DNA from: Cryomorphaceae bacterium
GTDB lineage: Bacteria > Bacteroidota > Bacteroidia > Flavobacteriales_D > Cryomorphaceae
Assembly (NCBI GenBank): GCA_003565555.1
Contig: PXBH01000126.1
Span: 1 to 64,000, forward strand
Direction: 5' to 3'
DNA length: 64,000 bases
Shown: piece by piece, positions 22,139 to 37,608 of the stretch
Layout: the number at the start of each line of letters is the position of its first letter
Position numbering within the stretch: the stretch's first letter is position 1
Program-made: the position numbers and the translations under genes
The notes under the pieces: model-generated
Told to the model about the DNA's origin: nothing
The model's input: only the letters and a program-made list of their open reading frames with translations
Database searches by the model: none

Positions 22139-23563
22139 TTAACGCACGACGAGTTTTTTCACCCCGCGGCGATCATCTACTGTGACTACGGTAAAGTACA
22201 TCCCTGCCGGGAGCCCTGCAATGTTGATTTCGATTTGCTGCCCGCTTTGGGCCGGACGCGTGAACGAGCGCACTGTTTGCCCCGCTTGATTGACAATCAT
22301 AACGGCTGCATTCCCGAAAGGAACCTCGCCGAAGCGCAGGTAAGTCACGTCTTTGGCCGGATTAGGAAAGAGCTGAAGCTCGTTACTGAATTCGGTGTTG
22401 TTCAGGCTCAGCACCTCACCTTTTGCGATGTCGATGTCAAAGACATTTGAAACGGCACTTTGCCCGCCCGAAGAGGCCTCAACCCTCCAGATGGCTTCTA
22501 CTGTTTCGCCGATTTCGACACCCAGAGATGCGAGCAAATCTGAGAGCGCACCGAAAGTTACGGTGAGGCTTGTGGCCGATCCGCCGTCATCGCTCGGGAG
22601 AACGACCAAGGGGTCGTCAAAATTTCCGGCTGATCGCAGTGCAAGCTGCCATTCGTAATTGACCGGCCCCGTTGCATTTCCTGCCTCTGTCCATGTGATC
22701 TCAGCTTGGGTGTCGGGATCACCTTCTACTTCGAGAAGGGTGCCGTCAGCGGGCCCGATGAGCTCGGGACCTGTCAGCGGCGGCGCCGTCATTACCCACG
22801 AATCTTGCGCAATGATACCGTCTACCACGATATTTTGCTCGGGAGTGTATTGCCTGAGGGCAACAAGCTGAACTGCAGCAAGGTCGCCCGCAGTTCCTCC
22901 GATAGGACCGATATCTGCTACGGCAGGTTCCGAAGAGATATCATCCCCGTCAGAAAAAATGTAAATGCTCACCAGATCATTGTCTTCTCCTTCAACCACT
23001 TCATATTTCAAAACGGCGAGGTACGTTTCATTGAGGTTTAATTCTGCCGTCAAATTTGCAGGATCTGTAGGCACGGCCGCAGCATTAAAGTTGAGCCCAA
23101 CCCTGTAGGTATCCGGGCTGCTCCCGGGCGCTACGAATGTACGGCCTCTGAACATGTTGCTGATATTGGTCAGATCGGGATCTTGGACATTGTTGTATTG
23201 TCCCAAGTGGAAGAAAAAACCGGCATTTGATTCGTTTACTTCTTCCGGCACCATCATCAGGAAAGAGGCGTACACGCTTCCCGAGGTTACGTCTTCGCTA
23301 AAGGGCTTATTTTCATCACTGCCCGTATTGTCGATGGCCACAGCATTTCCGATTCCGCTGCCGAGGTAGGGGGTCTGTTCCAATGAAAGTCCGAAGTCGG
23401 TTACAAGCAGGGGATTTGTATTACCGGCGCTGTGCGGCGTCCAGCCGTGGTCTCTGATTTGATCGCCGGCCGGATAGTCAAAATTGTCAGACATGAACAC
23501 GGTTTGCCCCTGCAGCGAAGTACAGGCAAAAACCAATGCTGCAATAGGGTATAGCTTCTTCAT
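22139..23563 (-). CDS. T9SS-secreted protein with one copy of a repeated 240-residue domain
   Basis: The 474-residue protein has a signal peptide (MKKLYPIAALVFACTSLQGQ). Residues about 20-265 form a domain (FDYPAGDQIRDHGWTPHSAG, YLGSGIGNAVAIDNTGS, NAGFFFHLGQYNNVQDPDL, RVGLNFNAAAVPTDPANL, VQLVALRQYTPEQNIVVDGI) that occurs three times in the neighbouring gene. A fibronectin-like module follows (VNYEWQLALRS), then a C-terminal type A sorting domain (LQLFPNPAKDVTYLRFGE ... GLPAGMYFTVV). The fold looks like a lectin/laminin-G-type beta sandwich, but I do not recognise the family. It ends at a clear terminator. Confidence 0.87.
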   Translation of the reverse strand: MKKLYPIAALVFACTSLQGQTVFMSDNFDYPAGDQIRDHGWTPHSAGNTNPLLVTDFGLSLEQTPYLGSGIGNAVAIDNTGSDENKPFSEDVTSGSVYASFLMMVPEEVNESNAGFFFHLGQYNNVQDPDLTNISNMFRGRTFVAPGSSPDTYRVGLNFNAAAVPTDPANLTAELNLNETYLAVLKYEVVEGEDNDLVSIYIFSDGDDISSEPAVADIGPIGGTAGDLAAVQLVALRQYTPEQNIVVDGIIAQDSWVMTAPPLTGPELIGPADGTLLEVEGDPDTQAEITWTEAGNATGPVNYEWQLALRSAGNFDDPLVVLPSDDGGSATSLTVTFGALSDLLASLGVEIGETVEAIWRVEASSGGQSAVSNVFDIDIAKGEVLSLNNTEFSNELQLFPNPAKDVTYLRFGEVPFGNAAVMIVNQAGQTVRSFTRPAQSGQQIEINIAGLPAGMYFTVVTVDDRRGVKKLVVR

Positions 23564-23866
23564 AAGTTTAGGAGTTTTTAGGTTTGGGTTAAAGTTGGCG
23601 GTAATGCTGCGATTACAGCAATACCGATTTTAAATTTTACAGCAGTCCAATTTATCGGCATTGCAATCTTTTCGGATACATCAATTTTTATTTCGGAGCG
23701 CACGAAAATCTTGCAGTTGCAGCTTCGGATTTGAGACGGATCCGGTTCGGGAAACGACCGAATCTTGTACCGATAGACAGATGGTTTTCATGGTCCGCTG
23801 CACCGAACTTCACCGCAAAAAAAAGCCCCCGAAAATCGGGGGACTTTTCAGGCAGTTTGCCGCGCA
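23564..23866. other. Intergenic gap between two related secreted genes
   Basis: The first half is AT-rich and should hold the promoter of the gene that reads leftwards from 23563; no consensus promoter was clear. The second half carries the terminator of the neighbouring gene. No gene is supported. Confidence 0.6.
23817..23842 (-). terminator. Rho-independent terminator
   Basis: On the minus strand CCCCCGA-TTT-TCGGGGG is followed by CTTTTTTTTGCGG. The 7-bp GC-rich stem with an eight-T run lies about 25 bp after the stop of the large triple-domain secreted gene. Confidence 0.9.
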
Positions 23867-26800
23867 TTATCTGCTGATCATGAATTTTTCGGTAATCGTT
23901 TCAGATGCTGTGGTAAGGCGGTAGAGGTACACGCCGTTTGGCAAATGCGCGCCGTCAAATTCGATGCGGTAGGCATGATCTGCCGCGGTTACTTGTTGAA
24001 AAATACGTGCTATCATGCGTCCGCTCATGTCGTAGACCTCGAGGGTTGCATACTCATCGCGCGGATTTGTGAAAGTCACATAGGACTGTGCCGATGTGGG
24101 GTTCGGTGATGAGGATATGGTAGCCCCGCAGTTTACGATTGATACGTTCACACCGTTGGAGATGTCAAAACATCCCTTCAGGTCTGCGGCAGTTTCAATG
24201 TCAGTGAGGCTCACTCCTTGTTGGTAGGAGAGGTGGCGAACTTGATAAGTTCCCGGGCTGAATGCATTGAGGTTAAAGGCACCCGAGCTGTTGTTTGCCA
24301 CAACGGGATTTCCCGGCAGGGATGAATTGACGAGAAAAAATCTGCTGCCGAATCCGGTGGCTCCCGTCAATTCCGTGGTGATCACGGTTTGGCTGCCCGA
24401 CGCCGCACAAACGATCGTGGGAGAGGTGGCAGTCAGCGTTCCGCCCTCCGGTTCTGTGCTGAGAAATACATTGACGGTATTGGATGAAGCCCAGCACCCT
24501 TCTACATTGGCGAGCTGCGAGGCGTTCGTCAGGGAGGCCAATTCAGCTGCGTTCACGTCTGACTCGTACCGAAGGTGACGGATACGGTACTGCCCCGGAG
24601 GGTACACGTCAAGGTTGAAATTGGCATTCCCCGCCCTTACTTCCAGTACGTTGTTGTCGGTATCGAGCAGTCCGAAGCGTCCGAATTCGCCTACCGCACC
24701 GGTGAGTTGAATGTTCACTCCCTGCGGTTCTCCCGAACCTGTGCAAAGGCTGACAGGCGAGAGTGCCGTAAGTGTACCGCCGTTTGCCAAGCACTCGGGA
24801 AGCGGTTCGCCCTCCAAGTCCCAGCCGTTCCGGGCGATGATGCCGTCTACGGTGATATTTTGTGTTTCGCTGTATTGGCGCAGCGCCACCAACTGCACCT
24901 CTTCCAAGTCCCGTGCAGTACCGCCTATGGGTCCTATGTCAGCTGCCGCAGGCTCGGTTGAGATGTCATCTCCGTCAGCGAACACATAAAGGCTCACCAA
25001 GTCATTGCCGGGGCCGTCAATGATTTGGTACTTCACCACCACGAGATAGGTTTCGCCCGCATCCAGCTCGTCCGTGAGGTTGTTCTCATTGGTGGGCACT
25101 GCCGCAGCGTTAAAATTGAGACCCAGCCTGAATTTATCGGGGGTGCTTCCCGGGGCCGTAAAAGTACGCGCCCTGAAAGCCGAAGCTATGGAATTGAAAT
25201 CGGGGTTGTCCACATCGCTGTATTCACCCAGGTGAAAAAAGAAGCCTGCATTGGAAGCATCCACCTCCGGCGTATTCATCAGAAAAGAAACGTAAACAGC
25301 TCCCGAACTTACCCCGTCGCTCAAGGGCCGGTTTTCATTGCTCCCGTTGTTGTTTACCGCAGCGGCTTTCCCGATTCCGCTTCCGGCATAGGAGGTTTGG
25401 TTCCACGAAAGCCCTTCTGCAGCTACCGCAATGGGGTTAATCGTGTCTGAACTGTGCGGGAACCAGCCGAAATCTCTGATCAATTCTCCCGAAGGATAGT
25501 CGAATTGTTCCTCCAAAAATGTAACGAGGGGCAATGCCTCACATTCGCAGTTCTCATTGACTTCTCCGGGAAGTCCGTCGGCATCACAGGCATCTCCGAA
25601 GTCGGCCTCGAGTGCTTCACAATCAAAGGTCTGTTCTTCTTCCTCCATCAACCAGACATCACGGGCCACAATGCCGTCTACAATAATATTCTGATCGGCA
25701 CTGTACTGACGCAGTGCTACAAGCTGCACAGCTTCAAGGTCGCGCGCAGTACCGCCGAAGGGGCCGATGTTCGGAGTTTCCGGCTCTGAAGTGATGTCGT
25801 CACCGTCTTCAAAAACGTAAAGGCTCACCAAGTCATTTCCCGAACCGGGTACAATCTCATATTTCACCACGACGAGATAGGTCTCGTTGAGATTAAGTTC
25901 GTTCGATAAATTTGCAGCATCCGTAGGAACGGCCGCGGCGTTGAAATTCAAACCGAGACGGTACTTGTCAGATGCCGTTCCCGGAGCTACAAAAGTTCTC
26001 GCCCTGAAAGCATTTGAAATAGAAGTGAAGACCGGCGAATCCACGTTGCTGTACTCTCCGAGGTGGAAGAAAAATCCCGAGTTATTCTCGTCCACTTCTT
26101 CGGGCACCTCCATCAGGAAAGACACGTACACGCTTCCCTCCGTCACGGATTCATTGAGCGGTCTGTTTTCATTGCTTCCGCTGCTGCTTACTGAGGCGGC
26201 ATTTCCTACCCCGCTTCCCAAATAAGCCGTCTGACTCCAGGACAGACCGAAGTCATTGACCTGAATCGGATTGGTATTGGCCGCGGAGTGCGGAAACCAC
26301 CCGAAATCTCTGATGAGTGCACCCGCGGGGTAATCGAATTGCTCTGTGAGTAATGTAGAAGCTTGCGTGGCTTCGCATTCACAGCTCTCATTGATTTCAC
26401 CGGGAGCGCCGTCCGCGTCACAAGCATCGCCGAAATCGGCTTCGAGTTCCGGGCAATCGGGTGCGGTCAATTCGGGCTCCATGTCCCACACATCCTGAGC
26501 GATGATGCCGTCCACGATAATGTTTTGATCGGAATCGTACTGGCGCAGAGCAACGAGTTGCACGGCCTCAAGATCTCGAGCCGAGCCGCCGAACGGACCT
26601 ATTGCTGCCTCAGCAGGCTCTGTGGAGGCGTCATCACCGTCGGCGAAAACGTACAGGCTTACGAGGTCATTTCCGGGCCCCTCTATGATTTCGTATTTCA
26701 CCACTACAAGGTAGGTCTCATTAAGGTTGAGGTCATTCGACAAATTTGCGGAATCACTCGGTACCGCCGCAGCGTTGAAGTTCAGTCCCAGCCTGAAGTG

Positions 26801-27253
26801 ATCGGAAGTGCTCCCCGGAGCTACAAAAGTGCGTGCCCTGAAGGCACTCGATATAGACGTAAATACCGGCGAATCCACATTGTCGTACTCCCCGAGATGA
26901 AGAAAAAATCCGGCATTTTCCTCGGTTACTTCGTCGGGTACTTCGATCAGAAAGGAGAGGTAAACACTACCTGATTCGGCGTAAGTATTGAACGGGGTAT
27001 TTTCATTGCTCCCCGTATTGCTCACCGCCGCAGCATTGCCGATGCCGCTTCCGGAATAGGGGGTCAGGTCCAAAGAAAGACCGCCGTCGGTGGTCTGAAT
27101 AGAGTTTGTGCCTGCCTTGCTGTGTGAAAACCAGCCGTGATCGGTGAGTGGGGCATTGGCGGGATAGTCGAATTGCTCTGCCAGATAAACATTCTGCGCT
27201 TGCAATGCGGCGCAAAACAGCACTGAGAATGCGAAAGCATAAAGTGGTTTCAT
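23867..27253 (-). CDS. T9SS-secreted protein with three tandem copies of a 240-residue domain
   Basis: The 1128-residue protein has a signal peptide (MKPLYAFAFSVLFCAALQAQ). Three near-identical domains at about residues 20-265, 305-545 and 585-825 each start EQFDYPAG and end VQLVALRQYxxxQNIxVDGI. Linkers 1 and 2 are repeats of ALEADFGDACDADGLPGEVN-ENCECEA, a calcium-binding-like Cys motif common in Bacteroidota secreted proteins. Two roughly 100-residue modules beginning GGTLTALSP/GGTLTATSP follow, then a type A sorting domain (SSPNPTSAQSYVTFTNPRDE ... LPNGVYLYRLTT). Together with the single-domain neighbour this indicates tandem duplication of a putative binding domain. Confidence 0.9.
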   Translation of the reverse strand: MKPLYAFAFSVLFCAALQAQNVYLAEQFDYPANAPLTDHGWFSHSKAGTNSIQTTDGGLSLDLTPYSGSGIGNAAAVSNTGSNENTPFNTYAESGSVYLSFLIEVPDEVTEENAGFFLHLGEYDNVDSPVFTSISSAFRARTFVAPGSTSDHFRLGLNFNAAAVPSDSANLSNDLNLNETYLVVVKYEIIEGPGNDLVSLYVFADGDDASTEPAEAAIGPFGGSARDLEAVQLVALRQYDSDQNIIVDGIIAQDVWDMEPELTAPDCPELEADFGDACDADGAPGEINESCECEATQASTLLTEQFDYPAGALIRDFGWFPHSAANTNPIQVNDFGLSWSQTAYLGSGVGNAASVSSSGSNENRPLNESVTEGSVYVSFLMEVPEEVDENNSGFFFHLGEYSNVDSPVFTSISNAFRARTFVAPGTASDKYRLGLNFNAAAVPTDAANLSNELNLNETYLVVVKYEIVPGSGNDLVSLYVFEDGDDITSEPETPNIGPFGGTARDLEAVQLVALRQYSADQNIIVDGIVARDVWLMEEEEQTFDCEALEADFGDACDADGLPGEVNENCECEALPLVTFLEEQFDYPSGELIRDFGWFPHSSDTINPIAVAAEGLSWNQTSYAGSGIGKAAAVNNNGSNENRPLSDGVSSGAVYVSFLMNTPEVDASNAGFFFHLGEYSDVDNPDFNSIASAFRARTFTAPGSTPDKFRLGLNFNAAAVPTNENNLTDELDAGETYLVVVKYQIIDGPGNDLVSLYVFADGDDISTEPAAADIGPIGGTARDLEEVQLVALRQYSETQNITVDGIIARNGWDLEGEPLPECLANGGTLTALSPVSLCTGSGEPQGVNIQLTGAVGEFGRFGLLDTDNNVLEVRAGNANFNLDVYPPGQYRIRHLRYESDVNAAELASLTNASQLANVEGCWASSNTVNVFLSTEPEGGTLTATSPTIVCAASGSQTVITTELTGATGFGSRFFLVNSSLPGNPVVANNSSGAFNLNAFSPGTYQVRHLSYQQGVSLTDIETAADLKGCFDISNGVNVSIVNCGATISSSPNPTSAQSYVTFTNPRDEYATLEVYDMSGRMIARIFQQVTAADHAYRIEFDGAHLPNGVYLYRLTTASETITEKFMISR

Positions 27254-27362
27254 GACGTGTGGTTTTTAAATTGGTCTTGCTAATTTGAGCCAATTCAAAA
27301 TCGAATGTCTAAACCAATTTAAAATAAAAATGCATACCGATTTTGCGGAATCCGTATTGTGT

Positions 27363-28259
27363 TCAGTAGAGCAGCCGTGAAGAAAACCGGGCCATCCCTC
27401 CCGAGTTGTGGCCTGTAGCGGGCGCTGTGTGAAGTGACCACCTAAAATCGAGGGAGAGGCTGTCTGCGATGGCCTGAGAGCGTTCGAAAAAATATGCGGC
27501 GCGTTCTGCCCTGTGGAGTCCTTGCGCATCGGCACCGAGGGTGTGGCGCAAGTTGAAGGAATGGAGGTCAGTATCATCCTCACCGACCGTGATATAAACA
27601 AGTCGTTCGAAATAATGGGCGGGATTTACCTGCGCTGCCGGGCTGATGCCTTGGCCGTAAGGAAAATCGATTTGAGGATCGGGAACCATATACCACCCGG
27701 CTGCAGAAGAAATCACACGGTTGAATCCCGCGTCGGGATCGAACTGAACGAAACGGTGAACAAGCTGCGCCCCCGCTGAATGCCCGAAAATATCATAACG
27801 GGACTCCGCGGTTCCGACAAAATTTTTGAAATCAAGAAAAAGCGGGTCAAAGACCCGAAACGTTTGTTCCTCCTCCGGCCGAAGTGATTGGGGCGAAGGG
27901 TTGTCGCCGTTTGCGAAAATATTGGCCAAATTGAATGCGTTTGATCCGGGAAAATAATCGACGGAAAACTGCGGTGCCAATACAATGAAGCCTCTTTGGT
28001 CAGCTTCCTCAATGAGTGCGTTACGCAAACCGGCACCGTTTCGGCCGGCACCGTGCACCGCCATAAAGACGGGCGAGTCGGGCCCCGCATTTGGCGGAAT
28101 GTAGTAGAAACACTTCACCGGCTTTTGTACAAATGGCGGATACCCGTTGTAATTATAATCACCGGAACCGTATACCCTTAATTCTCCGCGATCACTGTCA
28201 TCATTGCTGCAAGCGAGGATAAGGCAAAGGCCGGCAAACAAAAGTAACCTGAGCATCAT
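27363..28259 (-). CDS. Lipoprotein alpha/beta hydrolase
   Basis: The 298-residue protein starts at the MMLRLLLFAGLCLILACS lipoprotein signal, with the lipobox Cys near residue 18. The mature part has an esterase-like fold: oxyanion-hole segment VFMAVHGAGRNGAG and nucleophile elbow DIFGHSAGAQLVH (Ser in GHSAG). A candidate acid and the catalytic His are in GEDDTDLHSFNL and TGHNSGGMARF. It resembles secreted poly(3-hydroxybutyrate) depolymerase or feruloyl-esterase-like hydrolases, but substrate is not deducible. The longer upstream frame overlaps the MocR gene end and was not used. Confidence 0.85.
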   Translation of the reverse strand: MMLRLLLFAGLCLILACSNDDSDRGELRVYGSGDYNYNGYPPFVQKPVKCFYYIPPNAGPDSPVFMAVHGAGRNGAGLRNALIEEADQRGFIVLAPQFSVDYFPGSNAFNLANIFANGDNPSPQSLRPEEEQTFRVFDPLFLDFKNFVGTAESRYDIFGHSAGAQLVHRFVQFDPDAGFNRVISSAAGWYMVPDPQIDFPYGQGISPAAQVNPAHYFERLVYITVGEDDTDLHSFNLRHTLGADAQGLHRAERAAYFFERSQAIADSLSLDFRWSLHTAPATGHNSGGMARFSSRLLY

Positions 28260-28345: not shown

Positions 28346-29830
28346 TCAAAATTTCCTCAAAATGCCTGTCAACCTCTTCAATATGGGTCTCATATGAATC
28401 GGGTGCACACCTGAATATCCGAAAATGAGACCGTCCTTTACGGGAGCTTCGATGTAGCACTTACTGAGGGCATGCGCGATGATGCCTTTCTCGGCGAGAG
28501 CCGAGGTGACTTTGGTATCACGGACATCGCTTTTCAGCAGTGTCGTGATGTGAAGTGACGGTCGGTTGCACGGCAGCGGGGTGAGGTAGTCTGAGAGCTC
28601 CGCCTCAATAAATTCAGAAAACAGGGCATGGCGTTCACTTGCTTCTCTCGCCACTGTTTCCAGATGTTCATGGAGATAGTTTTTCTCAATAAAGCCGCGC
28701 AGTACTACTTGGACTGTGGGTGAAACAAACCTGTGAGAATGCATCACCATCGCGTGAAATTCCTTGACAAGGTGCATGGGTACGATGACGAAGCCCACAC
28801 GGATACTCGGGTGCAAAATACGGTTAAAGGTGCCGAGATAGAAGGTACGGTCTGCTCTGTCGAGCCCGAAGATCGGCTTGCCGTCACGACGGGGATAGTT
28901 GATCTCATTCTCGTAGTCGTTTTCTATAATGTAAAGCCCTTTTTCATCTGCAAGTTCCAAGATTTCCGCTTTTCGCTCATCGCTCATGGGGGTTCCTGTA
29001 GGGTAGTGCTGAGAAGGGGTGAGATGAATGAGTTTTGCTTGCGGTGTGATTTTGCGGCGTATTTCTTCTGTCATCATTCCGCTCCCGTCGACCCCTACAC
29101 CTGTGACATCCGCCCGCAGACCTTTGAACACGGAATGTGCATTGGGAAAAGTGGGGTTTTCAAGAAAAACCTGATCGCCGGGGTTGAGCATCAAATTGCC
29201 GATAAGGTAGAGCGATTGCAGCGAACCGCTTAAGATGAAAACTTGGCGGTAATCACATTTTACGTTGCGCCGCAAGTTGAGGTAATTCGAAATGGTCTTC
29301 CTCAGTACCTCTACACCCGCACCGGCGTAGTAAGAGAGCTCTGAAGCCCGAACAAATTTCCAATATTCATCCGATAGCTTTTTCCAACGTGTGATCGGAA
29401 AAAGGTCCAAAGGAGGAATTCCCGGCCTGAAAGCAATCCCGGGGTCATCTGTGGCATTGATCAAACCCAAATTTTGCCGAAAGGCACAGGCAGCCTCCGA
29501 TACAGAAACATAGTTCGTGCCCGGAGCCCTGTTGTCTGTTGCGAAGTAATCCGCATTGCCCGGTGATACGACACGGTGTCCGGAACCGACCACGGAATCG
29601 AGCAGACCCTCCAGTTTCAGCAAATCATACACCTTTACAATGGTACTCCGCGATACCCCGAGACTGTCCGAAAGCGCTCGGGTGGGCGGCAGTTCGCATT
29701 CGTCAGGCAATTCCCCTGAGAGAATTTTTTCCTTTATAGTGCTGTAAATCCGCCGGTACTTGGCGGTTTTCGTGCCACCTGCAGCGGGGCTTATCGGAGC
29801 GGGGCAGATTTTTTCGGGTGCGATCTTCAT
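28346..29830 (-). CDS. MocR-family regulator (GntR HTH + aminotransferase fold) lacking the PLP lysine
   Basis: Of 494 residues, residues about 25-95 are a GntR winged helix (IYSTIKEKILSGELPDECEL-PPTRALSDSLGVSRSTIVKV). Residues 125-494 are a fold-type I aminotransferase domain with the YPTGTPMSDERKAEILELAD and IIENDYENEINYP segments. The PLP Schiff-base lysine lies in a GTFSK motif in this family; here the aligned sequence is FYLGTFNRILHPSIRVGF, with Arg for Lys (codon CGT). Aldimine chemistry should therefore be lost and it may sense ligand otherwise. It is divergent, 91 bp away, from the DcuC-IadA operon, which it probably controls. Confidence 0.9.
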   Translation of the reverse strand: MKIAPEKICPAPISPAAGGTKTAKYRRIYSTIKEKILSGELPDECELPPTRALSDSLGVSRSTIVKVYDLLKLEGLLDSVVGSGHRVVSPGNADYFATDNRAPGTNYVSVSEAACAFRQNLGLINATDDPGIAFRPGIPPLDLFPITRWKKLSDEYWKFVRASELSYYAGAGVEVLRKTISNYLNLRRNVKCDYRQVFILSGSLQSLYLIGNLMLNPGDQVFLENPTFPNAHSVFKGLRADVTGVGVDGSGMMTEEIRRKITPQAKLIHLTPSQHYPTGTPMSDERKAEILELADEKGLYIIENDYENEINYPRRDGKPIFGLDRADRTFYLGTFNRILHPSIRVGFVIVPMHLVKEFHAMVMHSHRFVSPTVQVVLRGFIEKNYLHEHLETVAREASERHALFSEFIEAELSDYLTPLPCNRPSLHITTLLKSDVRDTKVTSALAEKGIIAHALSKCYIEAPVKDGLIFGYSGVHPIHMRPILKRLTGILRKF

Positions 29831-29836
29831 AAAATG

Positions 29837-29875
29837 GGTATGTAAAAATACAGATAATCGGTATGCTTTTTACAT
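29837..29875. promoter_or_regulatory. Candidate MocR operator: direct and inverted repeats between divergent genes
   Basis: GGTATG occurs twice 23 bp apart (29837-29842 and 29860-29865), about two helical turns. A perfect 9-bp inverted repeat, ATGTAAAAA (29840-29848) and TTTTTACAT (29867-29875), overlaps them. The site lies just upstream of the regulator start codon and 50-80 bp before the DcuC gene. Known MocR regulators such as GabR bind direct repeats near divergent promoters; assigning this as the operator is inference. Confidence 0.5.
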
Positions 29876-29921: not shown

Positions 29922-31289
29922 ATGAGCATTGCGGGTCCCATACTATCTGTTGTTTTTATCGCTGTTGTAGCGTTTATGCTTTTGAAAAAGTATTACCCAC
30001 ATGCGGTATTGCTTTTGGCAGGGCTGCTTATGTATGTCGCGGCTCACCTGCTCGGATACCAAACTGTACCGCTTTATGAAACGACGGGCCACATCGGATT
30101 CGACCTATTCGCGCTCATCAGGGAATCATTTGCGCAGACCAATGCCGGCGTTGGGCTGCTTATCATGGCCATCGGAGGATTTGTGGCCTATATCAATGCG
30201 ATCGGTGCGAGCCGGGCCTTGGTCAATGTGGCCGTGAGACCGCTGAATCTGCTCAGGAAGTATCCCCTTGCGGCGGCTTCGGCAGTGATTCCCATCAGTC
30301 AGGTACTTTTCGCAGCCATACCGTCGGCAGCGGGATTGGGTTTGCTTCTGATGGCGTCGGTCTTCCCCATTTTGGTCACCTTGGGGGTGAGCCGTCTTTC
30401 TGCTGTATCCGTGATTACTGCGTCCACGGCAATGGGCTTGGGTCCCGCTTCAGCCATTACCGTAAGGGCATCGGATATTGCCGACCTTCCTCCCGTAGAA
30501 TATTTCGCTGCAAGCCAATTGCCTTTGTTTATACCCCTATCAGTTTTTTTGAGTGTGGTTTATTTCATCGTGAACCGTCACTTCGACCGCACGTCACCCC
30601 CCGAAGCTCCCTCAAAAACCTATGACGAGAAATCTGCCCATGAACAGGCCCCGCCCGTTTACGCCGTTATCCCTGTTCTGCCCATATTGTTGCTGCTGAT
30701 TTTTTCCGAAGTCACCGGAATAACGGACGGGGCTGTGACCCTCGATACCACCACGGCTATGTTTGTGAGTCTGGCTCTTGCTATGGTTTTCGAGTGGATC
30801 CGCAAGCGAAAATTCGGTGCCGTTCTGGCCTCCCTGAAGGAATTTTGGAACGGCATGGGAAATATTTTCAAAACAGTGGTGACCTTGATCATCGCTGCCG
30901 AGATTTTTTCCGGAGGGCTCATAGCTCTGGGATTTATTGACGGGATGCTGCTGCTTTCCGACAATTTCGGATTCGGATATGTCGGTTTCGGGATCGTGCT
31001 TTCCGCCATGATTTTTCTTTCTGCCATGCTCATGGGAAGCGGCAATGCGGCCTTTTTTTCCTTCGGCCCGCTCGTGCCTGACATCGCTGCCAAGCTCGGG
31101 GTCAGTTCCGTTTCCCTCATCTTACCCATGAACTTTGCCGCCTCAATGGGTCGGACGGTTTCCCCCGTGGCGGGGGTGATTATTGCCACGGCAGAAATTG
31201 CTGAAGTTAATGTTTTTCAACTCGTTAAGCGTAATTTGGTGCCGGTGATTTCCGCTTTTCTATTCATGTTAATCATTCATTTTTTATGA
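29922..31289 (+). CDS. dcuC: DcuC-family C4-dicarboxylate transporter
   Basis: The 455-residue inner-membrane protein has about 12 hydrophobic helices. It aligns well, from memory, with E. coli DcuC: GGFVAYINAIGAS, AGLGLLLMASVFPILVTLGVSR, MGSGNAAFFSFGPLVPDIA and GRTVSPVAGVIIATAEIAEV. Family members transport fumarate, succinate, malate or aspartate. The stop codon overlaps the start of the isoaspartyl dipeptidase gene, so the products should be made together. Here the substrate may be aspartate or an aspartyl dipeptide. It begins the operon downstream of the MocR divergent region. Confidence 0.88.
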   Translation: MSIAGPILSVVFIAVVAFMLLKKYYPHAVLLLAGLLMYVAAHLLGYQTVPLYETTGHIGFDLFALIRESFAQTNAGVGLLIMAIGGFVAYINAIGASRALVNVAVRPLNLLRKYPLAAASAVIPISQVLFAAIPSAAGLGLLLMASVFPILVTLGVSRLSAVSVITASTAMGLGPASAITVRASDIADLPPVEYFAASQLPLFIPLSVFLSVVYFIVNRHFDRTSPPEAPSKTYDEKSAHEQAPPVYAVIPVLPILLLLIFSEVTGITDGAVTLDTTTAMFVSLALAMVFEWIRKRKFGAVLASLKEFWNGMGNIFKTVVTLIIAAEIFSGGLIALGFIDGMLLLSDNFGFGYVGFGIVLSAMIFLSAMLMGSGNAAFFSFGPLVPDIAAKLGVSSVSLILPMNFAASMGRTVSPVAGVIIATAEIAEVNVFQLVKRNLVPVISAFLFMLIIHFL

Positions 31290-32428
31290 TGCTTTTGATA
31301 AAAAATGCACAGGTTTTTGACCCCGAGGAGCGGGGTCTCAAAGATATTCTCGTCGCGGCGGGGCGCATTATCGCCGTTGAAGGGCGAATCGACCCTCATC
31401 CGCTTTTTCAAATTTGGGATGCCGAAGGGAAAACCGTCACCCCGGGCTTTATCGATCAGCACATCCACATCATCGGGGCGGGCGGAAAGCGCGGCTTCGC
31501 CAGCATGACCCCCGAAATTCCCATGACGGAGCTGATTGCCTGCGGTACAACCACGGTGGTGGGTCTCCTCGGTACAGATGCATCAACGCGCAGCATTCAT
31601 ACGCTCTATGCGAAATGCAAAGCACTTGATGCGGAGGGCATCACGGCCTACATGTACACGGGATATTTCGGTCTGGAGCCGAAGCACATTTTGGATAATG
31701 TACAGGATGAAATGATCTTTATCGATAAGGTGCTCGGGTGCAAAATTGCCATCAGCGATGTACGCTCTTCTTATCCGACCGACCTCGAACTGCTCCGAGT
31801 GCTCAGGCAGGTACGGGTAGGCGGCATGATCGGCAATAAAAAAGGAATCATGCACATTCACCTCGGCGCGCTTGAGGCCAAAATCGACAGCCTGATTCGC
31901 ATTGTAAAGGACCACGGATTTCCGATTGCCAATATTTCCCCCACGCATATGGGCCGCACGAAAGATCTTCTGGAGCAGGGGGTGACTTTCGCAAAAATGG
32001 GCGGTATGATCGACATATCCACGGGCGGCACGAACTACACTGAACCCTGCGAAGCCATTATGCACGCATTGGATCTGGGTGCCTCCATTGATAAAATTAC
32101 CCTGAGCAGCGACGGGTATACCTGCCTTGACAGGAAAGATGAAAACGGGAAGGTAATCGGTATTCGCAAGGCTCCCTTTGACCAAAACATCGTGCAGGCG
32201 CTGAAGTTGGCACAAAACGGATTGTCCCTCACCGATGCCCTGAAGACGGTAACCCTGAACCCCGCGACCAATCTCGGCCTGGAAGGAAAGGGACGCATCA
32301 CCGCGGGGGCTGACGCCGATTTCTGCTGCTTTGACGAGGGTTTGAATCTCACCGATGTCTTTGCCCGCGGAAAAAAAATGATGTCTGAAGGAAAAGTCAC
32401 TGCTGCAAACTCATTCGACGCACCGTGA
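31286..32428 (+). CDS. iadA: Isoaspartyl dipeptidase (beta-aspartyl peptidase)
   Basis: The 380-residue amidohydrolase lacks a signal peptide, so it should be cytoplasmic. Motifs: metal ligands in GFIDQHIHIIGAGGKRGF (His59, His61), carboxylated Lys in LGCKIAISDVRSSYP (near 153), further His in MHIHLGALEAK and SPTHMGR, and catalytic Asp in ITLSSDGYTC (near 276). This matches E. coli IadA, which hydrolyses beta-aspartyl dipeptides including those from damaged proteins or cyanophycin. The ATGA overlap with the transporter gene upstream and GTGA overlap with the porin downstream mark a translationally coupled operon. Length is close to the family norm of about 390. Confidence 0.93.
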   Translation: MMLLIKNAQVFDPEERGLKDILVAAGRIIAVEGRIDPHPLFQIWDAEGKTVTPGFIDQHIHIIGAGGKRGFASMTPEIPMTELIACGTTTVVGLLGTDASTRSIHTLYAKCKALDAEGITAYMYTGYFGLEPKHILDNVQDEMIFIDKVLGCKIAISDVRSSYPTDLELLRVLRQVRVGGMIGNKKGIMHIHLGALEAKIDSLIRIVKDHGFPIANISPTHMGRTKDLLEQGVTFAKMGGMIDISTGGTNYTEPCEAIMHALDLGASIDKITLSSDGYTCLDRKDENGKVIGIRKAPFDQNIVQALKLAQNGLSLTDALKTVTLNPATNLGLEGKGRITAGADADFCCFDEGLNLTDVFARGKKMMSEGKVTAANSFDAP

Positions 32429-33759
32429 GCCTGAATACCTCGCATATCAGATGCTTCCTGCTGCTCTCGACCGTTGTTGTCGCTGCAACGGCTGCTTTTT
32501 CTCAGGAAGGCGTGATCGTGAACACATACACGCACGGCGAAGGCTATAATTTTACCACCTATGACGATGACGATTACAGTATCGCCATTTCAGGATTCGT
32601 GCAGCCGTCATACGAACGGAAGTTCTACACCGACCACGATTTTGATGAACCCGCGCAGCGTTTCAGAATGCGCAGGTTACGCTTGCGCTACACGGGCAGG
32701 GCAGCACAGGAAAGGATCATCTGGCGGCTTCAGGGCGAGTTCAGCGGAAACCTCGAGGGCGATGCTACCATTGCTCGGTTTTTGACCGATGCATGGGTGG
32801 GATACCGGCTTAACCGCAGATGGATGCTTCGTGCAGGTCAAAAGAACACACCCACGGACAACCGTCAGCTCCTCATACGTTCGCACTCTCTTCAGCTCGT
32901 TGAGCGCAGCAGAATCACCGGCGCTTTCAGTACCATCCGTGAGTTCGGGATGTTTCTCGACGGTACCGTGCCGATGGGGCGGGGGATGTATATGCGCCCG
33001 AGTGTGGTAGTGACCAACGGAGACGGGCCCAATGCCTTTGATGCGGATTTCGGAGGACTTAAGTACGGCGGCCGCCTCGATTTTTTGCCCTTCGGACTTT
33101 TCACCAACCTCGGTCAATTTCACGAAATGGATATGATGCGCGAACAGGTGCCGCGTTTGGTATTCGGTGTGACCTACAGCTACAACCAAGGCGTGAGCAG
33201 CCGCAGGGGCCGTGAGAGCGGAAGCATTCTTTACCTGAATGACGCCAATGAATTTTCCCTGCCCGATTTCGAAAAAATCGGTGCTGACTTCCTCTTTAAA
33301 TACCGCGGGTTTTCTGCGCTCGGTGAGTTTGTGACCACCCGCGCCTACGTGCCTTCAGACATCACCCAACGCATTAGAAACGACGGCTCGATTACGGGTA
33401 CTTTTCCCGTGGGCGACACCGATGATATGGTGAACTATGTGAAGGGGCGGATGATGCTCGGCACCGGAATTATGGTGCAGGCAGGCTATCTTTTCAAAAA
33501 CCGCTTTTCTGTGGATGCACGCTACACCAATCTGGATGCGGATGCACATTCTTTCCTGAACAACGGTACTTTTTACAACCGACCGAACTACTACACCTTC
33601 GGAGTCGCGCAGCATTTCGGCAAATTTTACGGTGCCAAGATACAGGCTTCAATGACCTTCGTCGATGTGAATCCGGGGTCCAATGACATCAACGGCGCAG
33701 GCAATCCCATGACGGGAAATGAATGGATATTCCGTTTTATCACCTCAATTGCATTTTGA
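32425..33759 (+). CDS. OprO/P-type outer-membrane porin, copy 1
   Basis: The 444-residue protein starts at a GTG overlapping the iadA stop. A signal peptide (CFLLLSTVVVAATAAFSQEG) precedes a barrel of the phosphate-selective porin O/P family: SIAISGFVQPSYERKFYTD, RFRMRRLRLRYTGRAAQERI, LTDAWVGYRLNRRWMLRAGQ, FGGLKYGGRLDFLP, ending NEWIFRFITSIAF with a terminal Phe. Bacteroidota members are not confined to phosphate; context suggests uptake of anionic peptides or aspartate. A related porin gene lies two genes downstream. Confidence 0.87.
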   Translation: MSLNTSHIRCFLLLSTVVVAATAAFSQEGVIVNTYTHGEGYNFTTYDDDDYSIAISGFVQPSYERKFYTDHDFDEPAQRFRMRRLRLRYTGRAAQERIIWRLQGEFSGNLEGDATIARFLTDAWVGYRLNRRWMLRAGQKNTPTDNRQLLIRSHSLQLVERSRITGAFSTIREFGMFLDGTVPMGRGMYMRPSVVVTNGDGPNAFDADFGGLKYGGRLDFLPFGLFTNLGQFHEMDMMREQVPRLVFGVTYSYNQGVSSRRGRESGSILYLNDANEFSLPDFEKIGADFLFKYRGFSALGEFVTTRAYVPSDITQRIRNDGSITGTFPVGDTDDMVNYVKGRMMLGTGIMVQAGYLFKNRFSVDARYTNLDADAHSFLNNGTFYNRPNYYTFGVAQHFGKFYGAKIQASMTFVDVNPGSNDINGAGNPMTGNEWIFRFITSIAF

Positions 33760-33760
33760 T

Positions 33761-35320
33761 ATGAAGCGCCTTCTTACACTCCTGTTTTCTGTCGCAGCGA
33801 TTATTCTGTTCGCCCAGCCCAATCCGCAGAGCAGAAAGGTGACGGAGAAATTCTTCCCTGATTTCGACATTTATATGCCCACACCGGCATTTTCCGCTGT
33901 CAACCGACAGAATGATTTTCGGGCCTTCACCGATCATGAGGCAATGATGGAATACATCACCCGAAAGCACGCGGAGCATCCTGAATTTCTCAGTTACACC
34001 TACATCGGTGAATCTCAAAAAGGAAAGTCCGTGCCTATGCTCACGCTGACCAACAAGGCCGTGCGCAGCGATAAAATACGCGTATGGATGCAGGGCGGCC
34101 TGCACGGCGATGAGCCCGCAAGCACTGAGTGTCTTCTTTATCTGATCCACATGTTGTTAGAAACGGATAGCTTACGTCCTTTACTCGATCACGTTGAGCT
34201 CAGAATGGTTCCCATGGCCAATGTAGACGGCTGCGACAGACTCCACCGTCATGCGGCCAACGGACTCGACCTCAATAGGGACCAAACCAAATTGGATGCA
34301 CCGGAATCCGTTTTCCTCAAGTGGGCCTTCACTGAATTCAATGCCGAAGTGGCGCTTGATTTCCATGAGTTTCGCTCCTATCGCCGCCATTTTGCCAAGC
34401 TCAGCGATTGGGGTGTTACCACGAAGTACGATGTGATGTTTCTCTACAGCGGAAACCTCAATGTGGATGCAGGTCTTCGACAACTTACCAAGTCGCATTT
34501 TGTTGAGCCTGCAAAGTCCGCTCTGGATACCTATGAGTTGCGACACAGCGATTATTTTACCTCTCGGGAAGTGCACGGAGAAATTCAGTTTAACCGCGGA
34601 GCCACCAATCCCCGTTCGAGCGCCACTTCTTACGCCTTGACCAACTGTGTATCCTCGTTGATTGAGGTGCGCGGAGTGGCCCTGGGCCGCACCTCCTACA
34701 AGAGACGTGTTTTTACTGGATATGCCATTGCTATGTCCTACCTGCGCTCGGCGGTAGAAAATGTCGACGCGGTAAGGGCAGCCATCGTCGAGGCCGATCA
34801 AAATACCGCACCGCCGGTAGTGAAGGCAACGCGTACCTTGGTGGGAGAAGAGGTTCCCTTTATTGATTTGGCCCGAAATGAGTACGTCTCGCTGCCTTCC
34901 GTGGTGCGAGATGCATGGCTTTCGAAACCCTTGCTGGTAAGAGATGAGCCCGAAGCCTACCTTATTCTGCCCGGACATGACAAAGCTGTTGCCAACTTGC
35001 GCGTTCTGGGCCTGGAGGTCGAAGTATTAGCAGCGGAAGCAGAAGTTTCGGTAGAATCCTACAAGGTGACCCGGTACCGCAGGAGTCCTTTCAAATACGA
35101 AGGGGTTCATCTGCAAACGGTTGAAACGGACACAGAAGAAATGCTCCGACGCTTTCCGCCCGGTACGAGCCGCGTTCGCGTCAATCAGAAGTACGGCAAT
35201 ATGCTCGCCGAACTGCTGGAGCCTGAAGCGGGGAGCAGTTTTGTGTTTTTTGAAGTGATCAAAACACGGCTCGGGGCCGAATTGCCCGTGTTCCGTGAAG
35301 TTAAAAGTAAGAATCCCTAA
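33761..35320 (+). CDS. Exported M14-family zinc carboxypeptidase
   Basis: The 519-residue protein begins at the ATG one base after the porin stop codon; signal peptide LLTLLFSVAAIILFAQPNPQ. The M14 zinc ligands are visible: HGDEPAS (His115, Glu118) and DFHEFRS (His202), plus substrate-binding NR in LDLNRDQTK (172-173) and a catalytic Glu in CVSSLIEVRG. The C-terminal 150 residues (from APPVVKATRTLVGEEVPF) form a separate beta domain. It should act in the periplasm or at the surface, trimming C-terminal residues from peptides before uptake. Overlapping stop/start (TAATG) links it to the next porin gene. Confidence 0.9.
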   Translation: MKRLLTLLFSVAAIILFAQPNPQSRKVTEKFFPDFDIYMPTPAFSAVNRQNDFRAFTDHEAMMEYITRKHAEHPEFLSYTYIGESQKGKSVPMLTLTNKAVRSDKIRVWMQGGLHGDEPASTECLLYLIHMLLETDSLRPLLDHVELRMVPMANVDGCDRLHRHAANGLDLNRDQTKLDAPESVFLKWAFTEFNAEVALDFHEFRSYRRHFAKLSDWGVTTKYDVMFLYSGNLNVDAGLRQLTKSHFVEPAKSALDTYELRHSDYFTSREVHGEIQFNRGATNPRSSATSYALTNCVSSLIEVRGVALGRTSYKRRVFTGYAIAMSYLRSAVENVDAVRAAIVEADQNTAPPVVKATRTLVGEEVPFIDLARNEYVSLPSVVRDAWLSKPLLVRDEPEAYLILPGHDKAVANLRVLGLEVEVLAAEAEVSVESYKVTRYRRSPFKYEGVHLQTVETDTEEMLRRFPPGTSRVRVNQKYGNMLAELLEPEAGSSFVFFEVIKTRLGAELPVFREVKSKNP

Positions 35321-36555
35321 TGCCCGTCAGTATGGTAACGCGAAGAGTACTCTTATTTTTGGCCGTGACGGCCGCATTTCATGTCTCCGGGCAAATCAGG
35401 CCTGCTCAAAATACCGCCGATTTCGAACTGGGTACGGGACTGAACTTTATGTTTAATGACAGTACCTATCAATTTCGGATGAGCGGCATGGTTCAGCCTT
35501 ATTTCGGCGCGGAATGGGTACAGGGTGAATCTCCCGACTATTTCCTCAATCCGAAGCGGGCCTATCTGAACTTTTACGGAAAGGCAGCCAAAGAGAAAGT
35601 CAGTTTCTTTTTTCAGCTTGATTTCAGCGACCTGAATTCTCTGTTGGATGCATGGGTAGCCTTTCATCCCACAGACGGACTCAATATCACCCTGGGGCAG
35701 AAGCAAACCATTGCCAACAACCGCGAAATGATGATGATGGAAGACCGTCTCGTATTTGCCGACCGCAGTCTGCTGAGCACAGCCTACAGCCGCACGGGTC
35801 GAGAGTTTGGCGTGTATGTGGATTATTCCGTCGCCATCGACCATGTGGTACTTGTGCCCCAAGCAGCGATAACAAGCGGGGACGGAAGAAATTCCTTCGG
35901 CGCAAATTCACGCGATGTGGATTTCGGAGGTGTGAAGTATGCAGGCCGTCTGGACGTGTACCCGATGGGGATGTTTGCCCCCGGAAATAACGGTCAGGTA
36001 GCCGACCTTGCACATGAAGATCGGATTAAAGCCGTGATCGGCGGTGCCGCATCGTATAATGTCGGGGCTACCGACGCGGTGGGAGAGGGCCACGGCAATT
36101 TTTTCCTTTTTGACCGTGACGGCAACCGCTCATTGGGGGATTATCGGCAACTATTTGCCGATGTGTTGATAAAGTACAGAGGGTTTTCCTTCTTGGGTGA
36201 ATATGCCGTGGCCACTGCCACGGGGCTCGACGAGGTTTTTCCGACCGAGGCAGGAGTCAACCCGCTTTTCCCTACCGAAATAGCACGGTATTTTGCCCTG
36301 GGAACCGGGTTCAATTTGCAGGCGGGATACGTAACGCACTCGGGGTACGGATTGGACGGCAGGTTTTTCGGGGTGTCCCCGGAGTATAATCAGAATCCCG
36401 AATCCTTGATCAGGCAGCAGACGGGTTGGTCCATGGGCTTTTCTAAATATTTCAAAGGTCAAGCGGCAAAAGTATCCCTGGCCTACACCGCCCTCGACCG
36501 CCCCGAAGGCGGTACAACGAGCATCGGCGAATTGCTCTTTCAAGTGATTTTTTAA
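35320..36555 (+). CDS. OprO/P-type outer-membrane porin, copy 2
   Basis: The 411-residue protein has a signal peptide (RRVLLFLAVTAAFHVSGQIR). Barrel strands are FRMSGMVQPYFGAEWV, KRAYLNFYGKAAKEKVSFFF, LLDAWVAFHPTDGLNITLGQ, and FGGVKYAGRLDVYPMG, closely paralleling the other porin in this operon. The terminal strand ends LLFQVIF. Two different porins around one exported carboxypeptidase suggest differing outer-membrane substrates or sites, for example peptide entry. Substrate specificity cannot be read from sequence. Confidence 0.85.
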   Translation: MPVSMVTRRVLLFLAVTAAFHVSGQIRPAQNTADFELGTGLNFMFNDSTYQFRMSGMVQPYFGAEWVQGESPDYFLNPKRAYLNFYGKAAKEKVSFFFQLDFSDLNSLLDAWVAFHPTDGLNITLGQKQTIANNREMMMMEDRLVFADRSLLSTAYSRTGREFGVYVDYSVAIDHVVLVPQAAITSGDGRNSFGANSRDVDFGGVKYAGRLDVYPMGMFAPGNNGQVADLAHEDRIKAVIGGAASYNVGATDAVGEGHGNFFLFDRDGNRSLGDYRQLFADVLIKYRGFSFLGEYAVATATGLDEVFPTEAGVNPLFPTEIARYFALGTGFNLQAGYVTHSGYGLDGRFFGVSPEYNQNPESLIRQQTGWSMGFSKYFKGQAAKVSLAYTALDRPEGGTTSIGELLFQVIF

Positions 36556-36597
36556 TCCGGAAAATCAATGTTTATAAGAATTCAAAAACACAGAACG

Positions 36598-37608
36598 ATG
36601 ACCAAGATGCGCAATTTCATTTTCATTTTTTCCTCAGTTGCGGCGCTATCGGTTTTGTTTACCGCATGTGAGACCGACGATGTCACACCTATTGTAACAT
36701 TGGATGCCTTTGAGACGTCCGTCGATGTGGCGGGAGGTACGGCGGATATCACCGCTCGACTGAACGGCCCTGTGAATGATGAGGTGGCGGTTACCCTCGG
36801 CTATTCAGGCACGGCAACCCTCGGTGAGGATTTTCTGGTGTCAGCCGATGAGATATTAATATCACCGCGTAGTATGGCAGGCACGCTTACCCTAACCGGC
36901 GTGGAAACCGGTGATACCGCCGTCAAGTCGATTACGGCCACCATCGTTTCTGCTCGGAATGCCGTGACAGGCGAGCCTGCTTCCGTCACTTTTGACTTGA
37001 TTGATTGCTTCGGAGATTTCGACGGTGACGGAATTCCGAATTGCGAAGACGAGTGTCCCTTTGAGCCGGGCCCGCCCGAAAACAACGGTTGTCCGTGGCT
37101 CGGTTTGATTTTTAATGAAGTCCTTTATGATCCTCCGCAAGGAATTGCGGGCGACAGTAACGGTGACGGGGTGCGACAACCGCAAGAGGATGAATTTGTG
37201 GAGTTTTACAATTCGAATTTTGAGCTCGATATCAGCGGCTATACGATTTCCGATGATGACATGGTGCGCCATGTCTTCCCTGAAGGTACCATCGTGCCCT
37301 CCAAAGGCGTGGTAGTCGTTTTCGGCGGGGGAGAGCCCACCGGCGATTTCGGAGGAGCCATTGTCCAAACAGCATCAACCGGCCGCCTTAGCCTGAACAG
37401 AGACGGAGATACGTCGACCCTGCGCGACACGGAGGGAAATGTTCTGGATGTTTTTGACATCAATCTTTTTGACAACCGCGCGGGACAGGCATACACGCGA
37501 AATCCCGATATCACGGGCGATTATGAAAAGCACACAGAAATCCCTGAGGCCGAGGGCGCTTTTTTTAGCCCCGGCACACGACTGGACGGAACTGTTTTTG
37601 GACAATGA
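36598..37608 (+). CDS. Lamin-tail-domain lipoprotein
   Basis: The lipoprotein has about 336 residues; the ATG at 36568 would add ten residues before the signal. The lipobox is SVAALSVLFTACETD. A Calx-beta-like domain (ETSVDVAGGTADITARL ... NGPVNDEVAVTLGYSGTATL) comes first. Then a calcium-binding CFGDFDGDGIPNCEDECPFE (thrombospondin type 3-like) leads into an LTD lamin-tail domain (LGLIFNEVLYDPPQG ... DEFVEFYNSNFELDISGY). Such proteins are cell-surface exposed in Bacteroidota. As the last gene of the operon, followed by a terminator, it may bind the peptide substrate, though that is inference. Confidence 0.8.
   Translation: MTKMRNFIFIFSSVAALSVLFTACETDDVTPIVTLDAFETSVDVAGGTADITARLNGPVNDEVAVTLGYSGTATLGEDFLVSADEILISPRSMAGTLTLTGVETGDTAVKSITATIVSARNAVTGEPASVTFDLIDCFGDFDGDGIPNCEDECPFEPGPPENNGCPWLGLIFNEVLYDPPQGIAGDSNGDGVRQPQEDEFVEFYNSNFELDISGYTISDDDMVRHVFPEGTIVPSKGVVVVFGGGEPTGDFGGAIVQTASTGRLSLNRDGDTSTLRDTEGNVLDVFDINLFDNRAGQAYTRNPDITGDYEKHTEIPEAEGAFFSPGTRLDGTVFGQ

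Follow-up and report, generated by a model that had tools for sequence, protein, structure and literature searches.

A branch of MocR-type regulators has replaced two residues of its cofactor pocket together: the aspartate that partners the pyridine nitrogen of pyridoxal phosphate (PLP) is asparagine, and the lysine that forms the Schiff base is arginine. Judged from aligned homologues, the two swaps are coupled, conserved and of single origin. The member described here lies in the window, the whole 64,000-nucleotide stretch of Cryomorphaceae DNA that was analysed, and its locus is summarized in the table. With somewhat better than even confidence, we propose that it is a MocR-derived regulator that would work without covalent PLP chemistry and directly sense a C4-dicarboxylate or aspartyl breakdown product. 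More tentatively, the branch may be the first natural MocR lineage to abandon PLP, its pocket re-used for an unmodified C4-dicarboxylate or beta-aspartyl ligand in the control of a regulon for beta-poly-aspartate, or a similar polymer, in marine Flavobacteriales.

Table. Features of the regulator locus (positions in the window)
Feature	Position	Strand	Basis
MocR-architecture regulator, GntR winged helix–turn–helix (wHTH) plus aminotransferase-like domain	28346..29830	-	Pfam, GabR alignment, AF2
Arg337 codon CGT, GabR Lys312 column	28820..28822	-	alignment; clade 39/39 Arg
Asn304 codon AAC, GabR Asp279 column (PLP pyridine-N partner)	28919..28921	-	alignment
Lipoprotein alpha/beta hydrolase, PahZ1 (poly(aspartic acid) hydrolase-1) homologue	27363..28259	-	PDB 6ve6 E 2.8e-51, 9o7u E 3.2e-48
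DcuC-family C4-dicarboxylate carrier, first gene of divergent operon	29922..31289	+	Pfam; NCBIfam NF037994 above cut-off
Isoaspartyl dipeptidase IadA	31286..32428	+	TIGR01975 349 bits vs cut-off 331; PDB 7cdh E 4e-79
Outer-membrane porin-like protein	32425..33759	+	Pfam Porin_O_P
M14-family zinc carboxypeptidase-like protein	33719..35320	+	Pfam Peptidase_M14; weak carboxypeptidase matches
Probable second porin, without Pfam match	35320..36555	+	look of the sequence
Secreted lamin-tail-domain (LTD) protein, conserved in related loci	36568..37608	+	Pfam
T9SS-secreted repeat protein, predicted regulon member	23867..27253	-	Por_Secre_tail; operator 27311-27342
T9SS-secreted SusE-domain protein, possible regulon member	22139..23563	-	weaker operator 23621-23652
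Predicted operator, ATACCGATT + ATACCCATT, 23 bp start to start	29833..29864	-	adjoins regulator ATG, 57 bp from dcuC ATG
Second predicted operator, AAACCAATT + ATACCGATT, 23 bp	27311..27342	+	57 bp upstream of T9SS gene starting 27253
Weaker third operator candidate	23621..23652	+	2 mismatches; 57 bp upstream of gene starting 23563

The regulator is encoded by an uninterrupted open reading frame of 494 amino acids. Its N-terminal wHTH was recognized by Pfam (PF00392, 47.3 bits against a cut-off of 27), and its C-terminal fold type I aminotransferase-like domain by PF00155 (Aminotran_1_2), by the GabR profile match and by Foldseek. GabR was matched over the whole length of the protein (profile, E 1.2e-61), and an AlphaFold (AF2) model computed from a diverse alignment (pLDDT 87.8) had GabR and PdxR as its best structural matches, with an effector-domain TM (TMt) of up to 0.90; structure models were used for confidence and fold only. 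Scores fell below the curated NCBIfam cut-offs for rhizopine MocR (NF052281, 321 bits against 650), PdxR (NF052282, 303 against 320) and GabR (NF052285, 178.8 against 600). These domains and the matches of the adjacent genes bear out the first-pass annotation, which had called the gene a MocR-like regulator beside iadA and dcuC. By the measure of its sequence, it is a MocR protein by descent and architecture that fails the subfamily's defining PLP site on two cofactor features, and is a variant form set apart from the ordinary members.

In descriptions of the subfamily, dependence on PLP belongs to the definition of a MocR protein. The two residues at issue, Asp279 and Lys312 in GabR, are reported as conserved across all MocR clusters (PMC6677901). 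In our alignment the segment YLGTFNR337ILHPSIRVG of the regulator falls on YMGTFSK312SLLPGLRIS of GabR, which puts Arg337 in the Lys312 column, as the first-pass annotation had it. Its reading of AAC CGT as Asn-Arg stands as well, at 28825-28820, with the same Asn-Arg pair in 39/39 clade members from independent genomes; the preceding Asn336 (AAC, 28825-28823, GabR Ser311 column) is older than the arginine swap, being present also in a Lys-containing sister group. What did not hold was its statement that the other parts of the aminotransferase domain were intact: IIEN304DY aligns with IIED279DY of GabR, and Asn304 is invariant in the clade (39/39), as is Arg337. The coupling of this change to the loss of the lysine makes a stronger case for altered PLP use. 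Positions 304 and 337 are among the most clade-specific of the distinguishing columns, which also include 205, 201, 229, 307, 329, 366 and 458.

Normal MocR chemistry could in principle be supplied by another lysine or by a PLP-loaded partner protein, a reading for which we found no supporting point and which we hold to be very improbable. Arg337 aligns gap-free in an otherwise conserved loop, and no second MocR was found at the search threshold in this 96.7%-complete genome, making a Lys-bearing heterodimer partner unlikely.

The homologue set came from scanning one-genome-per-species contigs and from searches made separately for order, phylum and class. Asn304 and Arg337 occur together in 39 of 122 distinct homologues and Asp and Lys in 78 (78/83 outside the clade), the remaining five being one-off combinations, among them that of a truncated member which bears Asn. 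All 39 belong to one clade from Flavobacteriales and related orders, at 40-74% identity to the query, and no intermediates (Asn with Lys, or Asp with Arg within the clade) were seen among the 122. In a maximum-likelihood tree the Asn/Arg sequences form one clade with one origin (support 100/99), and they still do so when the diagnostic columns are removed (SH-aLRT 99). In their closest relatives (L045-L047) Asp and Lys are both retained, with EDDYDHE and an otherwise near-identical motif, GTFNKLLHPSIRLGY. A check of 32 genes found every one of the six arginine codons, CGN and AGR, in use for Arg337, which indicates that the residue is held by selection. The comparison proposed in the first pass, an alignment of homologues adjacent to iadA and dcuC, thus finds Arg conserved throughout the 39 members; the Lys homologues it had named as a threat to its reading all fall outside the clade, where both the neighbouring genes and the predicted operator differ. 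A sequencing error, which it had also named, or a decaying gene finds no support, is refuted by the conservation across 39 independent sequences that differ in their synonymous codons, and has a negligible probability. A natural Lys-less MocR clade was not found in the open-access literature.

Three further departures from the usual residues were seen as single sequences. L062:1267-2799 (genome G756) has an independent Lys312-to-Arg change (GSFGR) with Asp279 kept; we set it aside, since it is a singleton and those same-genus orthologues that could be read have Lys. The distant MocR-like protein L035:4935-6380 (Selenomonadaceae) has Asn at Asp279, Thr at Lys312 and Lys at Arg319, and was likewise set aside, being a singleton on a long branch whose searched relatives keep Asp and Lys. 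In the MocR-like L141:593-2089, also a singleton, Gln replaces the PLP lysine (NTFSQ).

Much of the pocket around the two substitutions is kept. The phosphate-cup residues Thr334 and Arg344 are retained in the clade, as are Tyr276 and the aromatics at 228 and 306; counted against their GabR equivalents, Arg344 (Arg319), Tyr or Phe at 306 (Tyr281) and Phe228 (the position 205 aromatic) are each present in 39/39 members. Because this cup is kept, the main rival to our reading is that PLP or PMP sits there non-covalently, that it joins with the effector amine in an external aldimine without prior transimination, and that Arg337 serves only as its anchor, a possibility that we consider rather unlikely. 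The conserved Thr334, Arg344 and aromatics at 228, 276 and 306 would suit such a ligand, and Asn can hydrogen-bond an unprotonated pyridine nitrogen; both points count against our preferred explanation. Type I enzymes with a mutated Lys, such as the AspAT Lys258 mutants, are still able to take up PLP and to make external aldimines with it, and since the phosphate cup is kept here, such chemistry need not stop with the loss of the lysine, as the first-pass annotation had supposed. Against non-covalent PLP stand the simultaneous loss of the pyridine-N aspartate and the precedent of EnuR, in which Lys302His abolished PLP binding and left a constitutive repressor (PMC8739950), so that lysine loss is destructive in an ordinary MocR.

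That locked repressor, together with the loss of both PLP residues here, also lends some weight to the view that the effector domain is a mere dimerisation scaffold and the regulator a ligand-blind or constitutive DNA-binding protein. We regard this as distinctly improbable: positions 228, 230, 276, 304, 334, 337 and 344 are invariant across proteins that are only about 40% identical, which argues that the pocket is under selection.

The neighbouring genes point to what the pocket might sense. The PahZ1 homologue lies downstream of the regulator on the same strand and is homologous over its full length, the 6ve6 match covering residues 32-298. Across the clade, relatives of PahZ1, dcuC and iadA lie adjacent to or near the regulator at 28/31, 25/31 and 22/31 loci, where many absences reflect short contigs or short flanks, and a DASS-family transporter is added in other clade loci. 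IadA cleaves beta-aspartyl dipeptides, and DcuC and DASS proteins are C4-dicarboxylate carriers. PahZ1 enzymes cleave the beta-amide bonds of poly-Asp (PMC4456602). Because of these family functions, the pathway is best read, by PahZ1 and IadA homology, as use of a beta-linked aspartate polymer. Cyanophycin, which iadA might suggest, was set aside as a less likely substrate since the S51-family matches in this genome lie on other contigs and the adjoining hydrolase is PahZ1, not cyanophycinase; the M14 protein, with only weak carboxypeptidase matches, is not recognizably PahZ2 and was dropped in that role. The larger T9SS-secreted protein (23867-27253) consists of three similar repeats of roughly 300 residues each, with the sorting tail as its sole Pfam domain. 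Lys-type sister regulators (L072-L074) sit with DAP-dehydrogenase-like, class IV aminotransferase and M20/amidohydrolase genes of an amino-acid pathway, and relatives of PahZ1, dcuC and iadA were absent near the Lys-type loci compared, many of which have short flanks only. A PahZ1-IadA(-DcuC) regulon with its own regulator was not found in the open-access literature.

The intergenic regions carry a predicted operator with a fixed geometry. The half-site ATACCAATT recurs as a direct repeat exactly 23 bp apart in 57 pairs from 30/31 loci, against 2 occurrences of the next commonest configuration and 0-1 in shuffled sequence, and the same repeat was present in 7/7 held-out loci fetched afterwards. 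As a prediction, this spacing would set the half-sites at about whole helical turns, as in repeat operators of the MocR/GabR subfamily. The first operator guess, an inverted repeat ATGTAAAAA/TTTTTACAT between the genes, gave way to the 23-bp direct repeat once the latter was seen to be conserved. A single pattern search of this genome, with up to two mismatches allowed, gave four matches, of which three are at this locus; a control pattern gave two, so that the third operator is not significant by number alone and is kept as a candidate because of its exact 57-base spacing, each of the three locus operators leaving exactly 57 bases to its target start codon. In two of three Lys-type sister loci the same half-site occurs as a divergent pair 40 bp apart. 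In Polaribacter sp. BAL334, an isocitrate/isopropylmalate dehydrogenase-family gene (PF00180) is likely an extra regulon member; the stretch that separates it from the PahZ1 gene holds two operator pairs of opposite orientation (L021:2343-2539).

The same geometry hints at how the sites act. On one side, TAnnTT[TC] precedes the first half-site by exactly 10 bp in 30/72 cases, which is where it should stand were the regulator's own start site covered by the operator. On the target side, TTT, the central part of the Bacteroidota -7 element TAnnTTTG, is found at exactly offset 28 in 86% of cases versus 7% elsewhere. This fixed promoter geometry suggests autorepression together with activation of the targets, and GabR is reported to act in both ways (PMC6522883). 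Direct repeats are favoured by PLP-free PdxR and inverted repeats by the PLP-bound form (PMC5320631); by analogy with apo-PdxR, the direct-repeat operator fits a PLP-free clade, a suggestive parallel only.

Taken as a mechanism, our preferred reading of a pocket without covalent PLP chemistry would run as follows. By exchanging the aspartate and the lysine together while retaining the wHTH, the aminotransferase fold and the aromatic and phosphate-cup residues, the clade would most likely have ceased to carry PLP covalently. The old cofactor pocket, now apparently lined by Arg337, Arg344, Lys457, Asn230 and Asn304, could take an underivatised acidic effector of the controlled pathway, such as aspartate, a beta-aspartyl dipeptide or another C4-dicarboxylate. 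A regulator dimer is predicted to bind the 23-bp direct repeats; it may repress its own promoter, whose predicted start site the operator overlaps, and may activate, from a fixed upstream position, the PahZ1, IadA, DcuC, porin and secreted-protein genes, putatively for beta-linked poly-aspartate-like polymers.

This clade lacks both key cofactor residues, with no intermediate seen, yet its fold is kept, its operator is clear and its regulon coherent, and so it lets one ask what PLP adds to a sensor and how an enzyme pocket turns into a plain receptor, with the Asp/Lys sister group as a natural before-and-after pair. The signal is probably sensed in a new, B6-independent way, and this regulator family appears to turn on genes by which poly-aspartate-like polymers are consumed, the regulon pointing to an environmental route, so far undescribed, for the use of polymers of beta-linked aspartate.

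Among known systems, GabR of Bacillus subtilis shares with the clade whole-length homology, domain order, fold, aromatic residues and the phosphate arginine, and the operator geometry suggests the same pairing of autorepression and activation (PMC6522883). Unlike GabR, the clade has Lys312 changed to Arg, Asp279 to Asn, Tyr205 to Phe, Arg207 to Asn and Arg430 mostly to Lys, and is predicted to regulate poly-aspartate-type catabolism instead of GABA genes. PdxR of B. clausii and rhizopine MocR give the regulator its best NCBIfam scores; PdxR binds both direct and inverted repeats, whereas the clade is predicted to use direct repeats. EnuR Lys302His is likewise a MocR protein without the Schiff-base lysine, but it is a non-inducible laboratory mutant (PMC8739950), whereas the lysine loss of the clade is natural, conserved and coupled to the Asp-to-Asn change. 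Finally, the neighbouring hydrolase is homologous over its length to PahZ1 of Sphingomonas KT-1 and Pedobacter KP-2.
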